From a virus, in the IMG/VR virus record IMGVR_UViG_3300034071_000672, positions 1 through 37,556 of that record: DNA of 37,556 nucleotides; one strand, 5' to 3'. Below the pieces are notes generated by a model. The model did no database searches. It was not told the DNA's origin and saw nothing but the letters and a program-made list of their open reading frames with translations. Each line of letters starts with the position of its first letter. The stretch's first letter is position 1. Below are positions 8,802-32,806 of this stretch, in pieces. The position numbers and the translations under genes were made by a program.

Positions 8802-8826
8802 AGGGAGTCGTAAGGCTCCCTTTATT
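8802..8826 (+). terminator. Intrinsic terminator of the 8192 gene
   Basis: AGGGAG (8802-8807) pairs with CTCCCT (8816-8821), 8-nt loop, followed by TTTATTCT. It lies between the TATATTTG box and the tRNA. Confidence 0.7.
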
Positions 8827-8914
8827 CTATTGTGGTGGAATAGGTAGACACGCAGGACTTAAAATCCTGTTGACAGCAATGTCAGTATGGGTTCGATTCC
8901 CATCAATAGAACCA
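8826..8914 (+). tRNA. tRNA-Leu (anticodon TAA)
   Basis: The acceptor arm TCTATTG pairs perfectly with CAATAGA and is followed by an encoded ACCA. The anticodon stem CAGGA/TCCTG surrounds CTTAAAA, with TAA at 8860-8862. A long variable arm is present, as expected for Leu. The T-arm is GGG-TTCGATT-CCC. It matches the TTA codons common in this AT-rich genome. Confidence 0.95.
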
Positions 8915-9109
8915 AAAAACAACTTCTTACAGAGGGCGGATTAGCACCGTTGAAAGATACTTTGGCTCTTGGGAGTAATTACCCAAATGAGTTACATGAC
9001 CCAAAGTGAACTGTGATGGACCCTGCTCTGATGTGCACGTCAACAGGTGGACAGTAAACTATGTCCAGTAAAATCTACAAGCATGGTGAGCATGCAAGGA
9101 GTTGTTTTT
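8915..9109 (+). ncRNA. Candidate novel structured RNA joined to the tRNA-Leu 3' end
   Basis: Starting one base after the tRNA CCA, 8915-8928 pairs with 9096-9109 in a 14-bp helix with a single T-G pair, closing a 167-nt interior. Inside, ACTTTGG (8959-8965) pairs with CCAAAGT (9001-9007) and encloses CTC-TTGGG/CCCAA-GAG (8966-8991). CAGAGGG (8930-8936) can pair with CCCTGCTCTG (9021-9030) with a bulge. Smaller hairpins are CGG/CCG (8937-8949), GGACA/TGTCC (9049-9066) and GCATG/CATGC (9081-9095). No protein-coding frame is present. I do not recognise it as RNase P, tmRNA, 6S or a group I intron. Confidence 0.6.
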
Positions 9110-9325
9110 AAATGTTCCTGGTTGCATACCGTAAGATCTGCTTCCAGGACTTTTTAGTTAGGATAGATTAGCGTTTATCCTAACTGCAAAGGCTAACCAA
9201 TATTAGCCCTAACCAATGAGTGGTTAAAATCTTTTTCATATCTGTATTACGTCAAAGGAGGTTATTGGGCCTCCTTTTTCTTTTTAGACAGATATCTAAT
9301 TTAGAAACACTTAAAATACATTTAT
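9110..9325 (+). other. Hairpin chain after the structured RNA, no gene
   Basis: Four further hairpins follow: TCCTGG/CCAGGA (9115-9149), AGTTAGGATA/TATCCTAACT (9156-9185), GGCTAA/TTAGCC (9191-9208) and TAACCA/TGGTTA (9210-9226). The terminator at 9254-9285 closes the series. The 60-codon frame crossing this part overlaps the terminator and the next gene and is not believed. ATATCTGT (9238-9245) and ACAGATAT (9288-9295) are inverted copies on either side of the terminator. Confidence 0.6.
9254..9285 (+). terminator. Intrinsic terminator
   Basis: AAAGGAGG (9254-9261) pairs with CCTCCTTT (9270-9277), followed by T-rich TTTTTC-TTTTT. It ends the tRNA-Leu / structured RNA transcript. Confidence 0.85.
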
Positions 9326-30194: not shown

Positions 30195-30839
30195 ATGTTA
30201 AAGAGAACAATCAAGAAAGTTCCTGTAAAAGGAAATCCCGAAGAAAGAGACTTGCAGAAGCCTTGCTCTGAGTGCGGTAAAGTAAAAGCTATCGCCAACA
30301 AGACTAAAAGACTTTGTGCAGGATGTGTAGTAAAAGAAAAGAAAGCTAAGCAAAAAGTCCGCAAAGAAATCAAACGTAAGATCAAACAAGAAACTATTAC
30401 TCAAACCAAGTTAGATCAAATAACATCATGGTTAGTAAGAGGTGCACACATCAATAAGTGCCATGCTTGTGAAATTACTCTAGATCCTAAAGGACTTCAG
30501 TGTGCTCACTTTGTAGGTAGAACTAAAGTATCTACTCGTTATCACTTAACTAACTTATTACCAGCTTGTCCTAAGTGCAATCTTTATACCCCTCATCACG
30601 TATGGAACTTAGGTAAATCCCTAAACAAGATATGGGGAGAAGATACCACAGAAGACATGCTACAACTTTCGAATAAGATTCTTAAGTTAAGTAACCACGA
30701 TAGAAAGCTTATCTACGATGTGTACAGAACCTGCCTTACCGATATTGAACAAGGCAACTACTCACAAGAGCAGAAGTATGAAAAGCTTAAACAGGCTTTA
30801 AATGATTATAACAAGATAGTAGGACCCATTTTAAAATGA
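30195..30839 (+). CDS. NinG/Rap-like recombination nuclease (HNH-like)
   Basis: The product has 214 residues. An N-terminal zinc finger has CSEC (24-27) and CAGC (41-44). A basic linker follows (KEKKAKQKVRKEIKRKIKQE). The core has CHAC (89-92), QCAHFVGRTKVSTRYHLTNL and CPKCNLYTPHHVW. The two Cys pairs and the H-x-x-N element give the HNH/NinG arrangement. NinG (Rap) of lambda-type phages promotes branched-DNA processing in recombination; that role is inferred here. It starts the operon with DNA polymerase (ATGA overlap at 30836). Confidence 0.85.
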   Translation: MLKRTIKKVPVKGNPEERDLQKPCSECGKVKAIANKTKRLCAGCVVKEKKAKQKVRKEIKRKIKQETITQTKLDQITSWLVRGAHINKCHACEITLDPKGLQCAHFVGRTKVSTRYHLTNLLPACPKCNLYTPHHVWNLGKSLNKIWGEDTTEDMLQLSNKILKLSNHDRKLIYDVYRTCLTDIEQGNYSQEQKYEKLKQALNDYNKIVGPILK

Positions 30840-32806
30840 TATATCTAGTTACCAAACAAGATATCTCCTTACCCGACATTACCCTTACTACAGTACAAGA
30901 GTCCCTCGAATACTTAAACAAGTTAGAGTGGATAGGTTTGGACACAGAGACCTCAGGTTTCGATCCTTACACTACTAAACTGTATACTCTTCAGTTAGGA
31001 GATAATGATGTTCAATACGTAATAGACTTAACTACGATTGACATCAACGAATACAAAGAGTTATTAGAGACTAAGGGTCTTATTGGTCATAACTTAAAGT
31101 TTGACCTAAGATTCCTTTATCATTATAGGGTAATTCCAACAAAGGTATACGATACCTTCTTAGGAGAAAAAACATCTCGCCTAGGTATAGAAAGCCATAG
31201 ATGCTCACTTGCTGCTTGTGTACTACGTCATTGTGGAGTCATACTAAGCAAAGAAGAGCGACTAAATATTACAGGTAGACTTACTGAAGGTTTCGTAAAG
31301 TACTCTGCGTATGACGTAAAGTATCTACACGAATTAAAGGACAAACAAGAATTCTTACAGCTAGCAGATGGTACCTCAGTGTCCATTGATTTGGACAATA
31401 AGTTTGTATTAGTACTAGCCTACATCGAGTATTCAGGAATGAAACTAGACGTAGAGCAATGGACAGCTAAGATAAACAAAGTACAAGCCATAGCAGATGA
31501 AGCTGAAGCACAGTTAAACCAATTTATCCTAGATAATAAGATGGAAAAGTTTATCGACTCTCAACTTGACCTCTTCTCTTCTTCGACTAAGGTTAATGTA
31601 AATTGGAACTCACCTTCACAAGTTGTGGAGTTCTTTCAGGCACTAGGTGTAAACACTAAAGTAGTAGAGAAAGGAAAGACTAAAGACACCATTGAAGCTA
31701 ACCATCTAGTAAAATACAGCTCAAAATACCCCATTATTGAGACTTATTTAAAGTTTAAAGGAGCTCAAAAAGACATAGGGACTTACGGACAGAACTGGAT
31801 AGACCAAATTAATCCAGTAAGCGGAAGAATCCACACACAGTTTAAGCAGTTGATGAACACAGGACGCTTATCTAGTGGTGGTAAATCAGGGGACGTAAAG
31901 AACTTTAACTTTCAGAACATTCCCTCAGACCAAGAAACTCGATCTTGCTTTGTAGCATCAGAAGGAAACACTCTAGTAGGTTGTGACTATACAGGCCAAG
32001 AGCAAATTGTACTAGTTAACAAATGTCTAGATAAAAACCTCTTAAAGTTCTATGATAATGACTTGGGTGACATGCACAGCTTTATTGCGAGCAAGATGTA
32101 TCCTGAGTTAGATGGTATGGATCTTAATGACATCAAAAAGAAACACAAGGATAAGCGTCAATCAGCTAAAGTTGCAGGCTTTGCTATTAACTACGGTGGC
32201 TCAGGTATTGGTATTGCAGATCAACTAGGACTAAATGTAGAACAAGGTCAGTCTATCTATGATGCATACTTTAGAGCCTTCCCAGGATTAGCAGCTTACT
32301 TTACTGAAGCAAAGAAGTTTGGTGTAGAGAATGGCTATGTTCTTATCTCACCCGTAACAGGTAAGAAGTCTTATGTAGATTACTACGATGAGTTTTCTAA
32401 ACTTAAGAACGAGATGAACAAAGATTTCTGGGACAGGTACAAGCAAATGAAGAATGCAAACACACCTACGGCTAGAGAGATGAAAGAAAAAGTAAGTCAA
32501 TTCTTTAGAAAGCGTGGAGACATTGAACGCATGTCTTTGAACTATCCTATCCAAGGTGAATCCGCAGAAATTACTAAACTAGCTTGTGTGTATTTTTGGA
32601 CTAAGTATTTAGTACCTAATAATTTATTGTTTAAAGTATTGATAGTCAATATAATACACGATGAGATATTAATAGAAACACCTGAGGAAATTGCGCAACA
32701 GGCTGCTGCACAATTAGAAAAAGCAATGGTAGATGCAGGTGCTAAGTTTTGTAAGAGAGTCCCTCTCAAAGCAGATCCCTGTATTGCTCCGTATTGGAAG
32801 AAGTAA
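30836..32806 (+). CDS. polA: Family A DNA polymerase with 3'-5' exonuclease
   Basis: The product has 656 residues. The exonuclease domain (1-170) is active by sequence: D36 and E38 (DTE), N86/D90 in GHNLKFD, and Y156 with D160. In the polymerase domain TGRLSS (342-347), motif A CDYTGQEQ (D384, E389), motif B RQSAKVAGFAINYGG (R441, K445, F449, Y453) and motif C IIHDEI (H608, D609, E610) are all present. Phe at 449 is the bacterial Pol I state. There is no 5'-3' exonuclease domain. It is the replicative polymerase of the phage. Confidence 0.96.
   Translation: MIYLVTKQDISLPDITLTTVQESLEYLNKLEWIGLDTETSGFDPYTTKLYTLQLGDNDVQYVIDLTTIDINEYKELLETKGLIGHNLKFDLRFLYHYRVIPTKVYDTFLGEKTSRLGIESHRCSLAACVLRHCGVILSKEERLNITGRLTEGFVKYSAYDVKYLHELKDKQEFLQLADGTSVSIDLDNKFVLVLAYIEYSGMKLDVEQWTAKINKVQAIADEAEAQLNQFILDNKMEKFIDSQLDLFSSSTKVNVNWNSPSQVVEFFQALGVNTKVVEKGKTKDTIEANHLVKYSSKYPIIETYLKFKGAQKDIGTYGQNWIDQINPVSGRIHTQFKQLMNTGRLSSGGKSGDVKNFNFQNIPSDQETRSCFVASEGNTLVGCDYTGQEQIVLVNKCLDKNLLKFYDNDLGDMHSFIASKMYPELDGMDLNDIKKKHKDKRQSAKVAGFAINYGGSGIGIADQLGLNVEQGQSIYDAYFRAFPGLAAYFTEAKKFGVENGYVLISPVTGKKSYVDYYDEFSKLKNEMNKDFWDRYKQMKNANTPTAREMKEKVSQFFRKRGDIERMSLNYPIQGESAEITKLACVYFWTKYLVPNNLLFKVLIVNIIHDEILIETPEEIAQQAAAQLEKAMVDAGAKFCKRVPLKADPCIAPYWKK

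Follow-up and report, generated by a model that had tools for sequence, protein, structure and literature searches.

Extent, fold and tRNA-island setting of the freshwater-1 RNA in large freshwater phages

A structured RNA directly behind a phage tRNA-Leu

The window analyzed here is the whole 37,556-nt stretch of viral DNA held in IMG/VR record IMGVR_UViG_3300034071_000672. It encodes a tRNA-Leu(UAA) followed by a discrete structured non-coding RNA of 195 nt, the 5' boundary of which lies cleanly at the tRNA end, as the initial annotation of this DNA had proposed (Table 1). That annotation had also described a 14-bp outer helix with a single wobble that begins one base after the CCA end. The helix, here called P1, is indeed present with a single G-U pair, but the one-base gap is not, as position 8915 adjoins the CCA. 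The 195-nt stretch folds better than all of 200 dinucleotide shuffles (z -3.3), and the statement that no coding frame fits was borne out, with no ORF of 60 aa or more found within 8915-9109.

A terminator-like hairpin at 8802-8821, just 5' of the tRNA-Leu, may separate the tRNA transcript from the preceding gene. On the other side of the RNA, further hairpins and a terminator had been annotated. The terminator was recovered as an intrinsic-terminator-like hairpin, but the hairpins within 9114-9285 are kept only in near-identical relatives, though the first of them has an apex that is widespread (see the last section). In the window and its close kin, the next gene 3' of the RNA is a protein gene.

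Table 1. Features of the tRNA-Leu/freshwater-1 locus, in positions of the window
Feature	Position	Strand	Remarks
tRNA-Leu(UAA), encoded CCA	8826-8914	+	ARAGORN; Rfam RF00005, 61.3 bits
Full-length structured RNA, P1 to P1'	8915-9109	+	Covariance model R1: 8911-9114, 208.7 bits (the window sequence is itself in the model)
P1, 5' strand	8915-8928	+	Pairs with 9096-9109; two-sided change in 12/14 pairs
P2, 5' strand	8929-8932	+	Pairs with 9011-9014; paired in every one of 61 sequences, with changes from GC to UA and from AU to UA
P3 hairpin	8935-8951 (8935-8939/8947-8951)	+	UUAGC in loop; 98.7% of cells paired, 4/5 pairs doubly changed
P4 long hairpin	8957-9009	+	Outer helix 8959-8965/9001-9007 plus pair 8957-9009
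P4 inner helices	8966-8968/8989-8991; 8969-8973/8982-8986	+	Read from the sequence and the MFE fold
P4 apical loop, AGUAAUUA	8974-8981	+	
Rfam RF02979 (freshwater-1) match	9012-9073	+	84.4 bits, cut-off 72; model positions 1-62
P5 hairpin	9022-9047	+	P5a CCUG/CAGG, 9022-9025/9044-9047; bulge CUC, 9026-9028; P5b stem, 9029-9032/9039-9042
P5 apical loop, GUGCAC	9033-9038	+	Self-complementary
P6 hairpin	9048-9067	+	98.4% paired, 6/6 pairs doubly changed
P7 hairpin	9081-9095	+	Loop GUGAG; 97.2% paired, 4/5 pairs doubly changed
P1, 3' strand	9096-9109	+	Pairs with 8915-8928
Separate hairpin, apex GCAUACCGUAAGAUCUGC	9114-9150	+	Apex 9124-9141; U-run 9151-9155; outside the 195-nt RNA
Intrinsic-terminator-like hairpin	9254-9277	+	End of the transcript region

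The 3' third of the RNA is freshwater-1

Freshwater-1 (RF02979) is the sole known RNA that Rfam 15 gives inside the 195-nt stretch, and it scores above the curated gathering score of 72 bits for this family. Both consensus hairpins (CCUG-CUC-stem-loop-CAGG, then a 6-bp hairpin) are present with every consensus pair formed. The initial annotation had not recognized the class, regarded it as a candidate novel one, and named a match to a known family as an observation that would speak against novelty. Because the 3' third of the RNA is RF02979, the class is not an unknown one. Freshwater-1 is a known but minimally described family, and our literature search, the reach of which did not extend to the 2017 discovery paper, found no text on it. 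P5 and P6 are alike in sequence and structure to the Rfam entry, which lacks P1-P4 and P7. Rfam thus models 62 nt only, while the whole molecule is about 195 nt, three times longer. What is new here is the true extent of the RNA, its complete fold, its tRNA-flush boundaries, its spread across phages and its palindromic loop, the family itself being already known. With the true ends and the complete fold, a 62-nt Rfam fragment becomes a testable molecule.

The extent was established by searches with separate parts of the RNA. A pattern for the freshwater-1 core matched 30 viral stretches, and looser core patterns yielded no additional true members, so there is hardly any variation in the core. 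A pattern built on the 5' half only, the part left unmodelled by Rfam, matched 71 stretches, at least 41 of them new; these matches carry the freshwater-1 core wherever the stretch reaches far enough, and core-based patterns in turn recover the 5' half. Further members were added by a third pattern that permits other loops, and a pattern for the 3' hairpin on its own gave chance matches only. A covariance model from homologous regions, proposed earlier as a check, was then built for the full element (R1) and gave one match in each of 100 stretches, the window and 99 besides. The 5'-half searches and the single R1 matches therefore indicate that both halves belong to one RNA of about 195 nt, found in about 100 homologous viral stretches. 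Rfam must undercount the family, since seven further members that were tested matched the whole RF02979 model at 61.9-71.8 bits, below the cut-off of 72.

Fold and covariation

The covariation alignment held 61 distinct sequences and a 53-pair structure. Across these sequences 91.9% of cells were paired, whereas shuffles reached 76.1% and slid versions of the structure no more than 43.4%; two-sided compensatory changes were seen in 39 of the 53 pairs. An unsupervised consensus fold gave 44 pairs, 35 of them doubly changed. The initial annotation had made its case dependent on compensatory changes in the 14-bp outer helix, and homologues do show them: 12 of the 14 pairs of P1 are doubly changed, and 82.8% of its cells are paired in 61 homologues (64.9% in shuffles, at most 62.9% in slid versions).

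Three of the internal helices proposed from the window (8959-8965/9001-9007, 9049-9066 and 9081-9095) are likewise each backed by compensatory change. The outer helix of P4 is paired in 97.9% of cells with six of its seven pairs doubly changed, and the pair 8957-9009 covaries as well; the apical inner helix of P4 was captured only in part by the alignment test. The variable stem P5b is 99.6% paired with compensatory changes. A further proposed helix, 8930-8936/9021-9030, had to be abandoned, as none of its pairs is doubly changed and its 65.8% of paired cells is the shuffle level. It is replaced by 8929-8932/9011-9014 and the hairpin 9022-9047. Two candidate loop contacts were also rejected upon inspection. 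In a pseudoknot between the CUC bulge of P5 and the GAG of the P7 loop, the P7 loop varies (GAU, GAA, AAA) and the CUC does not, and kissing between the P3 and P4 loops showed no consistent covariation.

These data bear on whether the functional RNA could be the 62-nt Rfam core alone, with the 5' half and the outer helix as variable flank. Rfam models just this core, and member L146 (7908-8036) is a freshwater-1 copy without P2-P4 that keeps P1 and P5-P7. We nevertheless strongly disfavor this explanation and give it very little weight, because covariation in P1, P3 and P4 is as strong as in the part modelled by Rfam, and the 5'-half pattern by itself retrieves freshwater-1 members. The L146 copy may mean that the 5' half is dispensable, or may reflect a natural deletion or a mis-assembled contig.

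Other members depart from the common fold in smaller ways. About 55 extra bases are inserted in P4 in L029:9942-10209 and L053:426-691. P7 is absent from L009, L016 and L152, where P1 comes soon after P6, so P7 is dispensable.

The RNA sits flush between tRNAs

An upstream tRNA was detected for 60 distinct elements, and in all of them P1 starts 0-4 nt after the discriminator base. A downstream tRNA is present in 35 cases; in 32 of these, P1 ends 2-7 nt ahead of that tRNA. The upstream tRNA is of isotype Leu, Gly, Tyr, Ala, Glu, Met, Phe, Thr or Ile. The tie to tRNA-Leu in particular, suggested by the window, therefore dissolves into an association with tRNA islands in general, with nine upstream isotypes. 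Overall, the initial interpretation is partly supported: the structured non-coding RNA, its clean 5' boundary and the compensatory evolution of the outer helix stand, but the unknown class, one helix and the tRNA-Leu link do not.

The tRNA-flush ends of P1 point to an RNA that occupies a tRNA-island slot, and normal tRNA maturation could release it. Since no tRNA lies within reach 3' of the RNA in the window, its 3' end in this phage would have to be made by another nuclease or by the terminator. Phage tmRNA was found near the tRNA island at L129:6263-6646 and L019:13556-13957.

The composition of P1, with an A-rich 5' strand and a U-rich 3' strand, together with the protein gene that comes next in the window, could suggest that this helix serves the tRNA transcript as an intrinsic terminator or spacer. 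We consider this quite improbable. In arrays, the tRNA right after P1 makes it hardly a terminator, as termination would cut the array off; a terminator would need neither the invariant internal core nor the seven-helix body; and a terminator-like site is found at 9254-9277 instead. There is similarly little chance that the RNA regulates the downstream gene in cis, as a riboswitch or leader. Such a role would suit the window and its close kin, where that gene encodes a protein, but tRNAs of many isotypes are common as downstream neighbors, unrelated phages carry the RNA, P1 closes it off from 3' sequence, and no expression platform was seen.

Distribution among phages

A family A DNA polymerase is encoded at 30836-32806 in the window; it shares 48.7% identity with the enzyme of Leptolyngbya phage Lbo-JY46 and 37-40% with those of Crassvirales. 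With these as its nearest relatives, the polymerase suggests a freshwater crAss-like phage as the origin of the window. The polymerase is shared by two other carriers of the RNA, at 98% and 84%, and most carriers are without it. The terminases of 22 carriers form three groups, namely a large one, a single record about 43% identical to it, and a third at about 28%, which is 58% identical to Flavobacterium phage immuto. Carrier contigs reach 311 kb. The RNA is present in at least three phage lineages of large lake phages and, as the carriers belong to separate terminase groups and mostly lack the window polymerase, it has therefore moved between unrelated phages. L076, a close relative of the window phage, also carries a Pistol ribozyme (2664-2725, 48 bits, cut-off 34.5).

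In bacterial genomes, which were searched by exact pattern, the freshwater-1 core pattern gave 0 matches. The 5' pattern gave 15, which were discarded because they lack the downstream core, are mostly coding and look like chance. No blastn match of the core was found in phage isolates, and the full model had no match in four isolate or complete records (Leptolyngbya phage Lbo-JY46, crAss001, cr108_1 and cr111_1). Low-scoring Lbo-JY46 matches obtained with filters off simply aligned the outer helix to an A/U-rich hairpin and were set aside.

Relation to GOLLD and ROOL

GOLLD is a phage RNA that lies near tRNA islands and multimerizes via kissing loops and A-minor contacts, and ROOL is a phage or prophage RNA, often near tRNA islands, that forms RNA-only multimers (PMC12286853). 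The location in phage tRNA islands is common to GOLLD (RF02032) and the 195-nt RNA, but GOLLD is often more than 800 nt long and differs in sequence and fold. ROOL is also larger, and is unrelated by its Rfam model. The covariance models of GOLLD and ROOL gave no match in the window. From this comparison, the 195-nt RNA resembles both in setting and perhaps in multimerization, but it belongs to neither family. GOLLD scored above cut-off in 8 of 31 carrier records; the two RNAs are therefore not simple substitutes and are unlikely to do the same job. At L042:2193-2606, L130:6014-6428 and L036:7072-7506, GOLLD shares a phage tRNA region with freshwater-1.

An invariant core and a palindromic loop

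All 61 sequences have the same P5a (CCUG/CAGG) and the same CUC bulge, even those members found by patterns that do not use them. A helix that never covaries amid helices that vary freely suggests sequence-specific recognition. The same contrast, within a compact closed body, might instead be expected of a self-cleaving or otherwise catalytic RNA, with the CCUG-CUC-CAGG region and conserved unpaired bases as its active site. This is unlikely, as no Rfam ribozyme matches and the boundaries, explained by tRNA processing, suggest no cleavage site.

All 69 distinct elements have a palindromic hexamer as the apical loop of P5 (GUGCAC in 57, UGGCCA in 11 and GUCGAC in 1), carried on stems of many sequences, and the P5 loop of the truncated member L051 has GUGCGCAC. 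Random shuffling of the letters of these loops gives a palindrome in 11% of cases. On a tree that leaves out the P5 region, the loop type changed in at least 7 parsimony steps, some of which may be due to recombination rather than mutation. The two central bases of the loop are adjacent and unable to pair within one molecule, so the complementarity that has been kept suggests pairing between two molecules, and homodimerization by loop kissing is predicted. This is a direct biochemical prediction. Against the dimer reading, 57 of the 69 elements share one loop type, and the palindrome could be kept for another reason.

One such reason would be selection at the DNA level, as the site of a protein dimer or of recombination, with a monomeric RNA. 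Hexamer palindromes are also targets of DNA-binding proteins, and the loop types switch as they do in recombining cassettes. We regard this as a minority possibility, though not a negligible one: the palindrome occupies precisely the apical loop of a stem with RNA-type covariation, and several palindromes are used rather than a single fixed site.

The apex of P4 gives a hint of a second self-complementary loop. Its adjacent positions 8978-8979 are GC or AU, never GU or AC, over 15 parsimony steps. It was not retained as an equally strong self-kissing loop, because the UCGCAA group has no palindrome there.

The pRNA of phage phi29 is of similar size, has paired ends and forms oligomers through loop-loop contacts. 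A packaging-type RNA of this kind, building a ring at the portal, would fit the size, the paired 5' and 3' ends and the self-complementary loop of the 195-nt RNA. The chance of this appears slight in the extreme, since the phi29 pRNA covariance model had no match in the window, the carriers have unrelated terminases, and the RNA was absent from the related isolates tested. Furthermore, the position of the 195-nt RNA is tied to tRNAs, and not to packaging genes or genome ends.

A model for the complete freshwater-1 RNA

The reading that we favor, with a rough probability of 0.55, is that the complete freshwater-1 RNA is excised from the phage tRNA island, dimerizes through P5 and acts in trans, its invariant core binding a partner, in a role linked to translation or tRNAs. 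In this model, drawn from sequence comparison, the 195-nt RNA would probably be co-transcribed with the neighboring tRNAs and released when the 3' end of the upstream tRNA is processed and, in arrays, when RNase P cuts at the downstream tRNA. It folds into a closed multi-arm body with P1 as the lid, an arm formed by P2 that bears P3 and P4, and P5, P6 and P7 as the other arms. Two molecules would probably be joined via the self-complementary P5 loop. The body would act in trans, the surface formed by P5a and the CUC bulge, with nearby invariant unpaired bases, being the likely site for a host or phage partner. The likeliest role would be take-over or protection of the host translation and tRNA machinery, because the tRNA-island setting suggests it.

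A wider proposal, to which we would give slightly less than even odds, is that freshwater-1 is the visible third of a class of tRNA-island phage RNAs that form symmetric homodimers or higher oligomers via self-complementary apical loops, those of P5 and perhaps the P4 apex. Such a class would be the compact, roughly 195-nt equivalent of GOLLD and ROOL, passed horizontally between unrelated freshwater phages. The matter bears on the reason for which big structured RNAs are found among the tRNA genes of large phages. Compared with GOLLD and ROOL, the freshwater-1 RNA is far smaller, which makes it easier to study by probing, native gels, cryo-EM and phage genetics.

A second recurrent element

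The hairpin at 9114-9150 merits separate study. No Rfam family covers it in the window or at the 14 loci scanned, and its 18-nt apex GCAUACCGUAAGAUCUGC occurs in at least 119 viral stretches, in three settings. The first is a hairpin with a conserved bulged U, followed by a U-run, in which six stem positions are paired in 41 of 41 cases and the seventh in 40 of 41, with compensatory changes. In the second, the apex lies inside a structured RNA of about 200 nt that ends in a terminator (L076, L189, L198, L202, L209, L233 and others); in L076 this RNA is found directly behind the freshwater-1 RNA. In the third, it lies inside an RNA of about 130 nt, 'AGUACACGGGAUCGAAA...', often directly behind tRNAs (L187, L196, L219, L223, L253, L292 and others).
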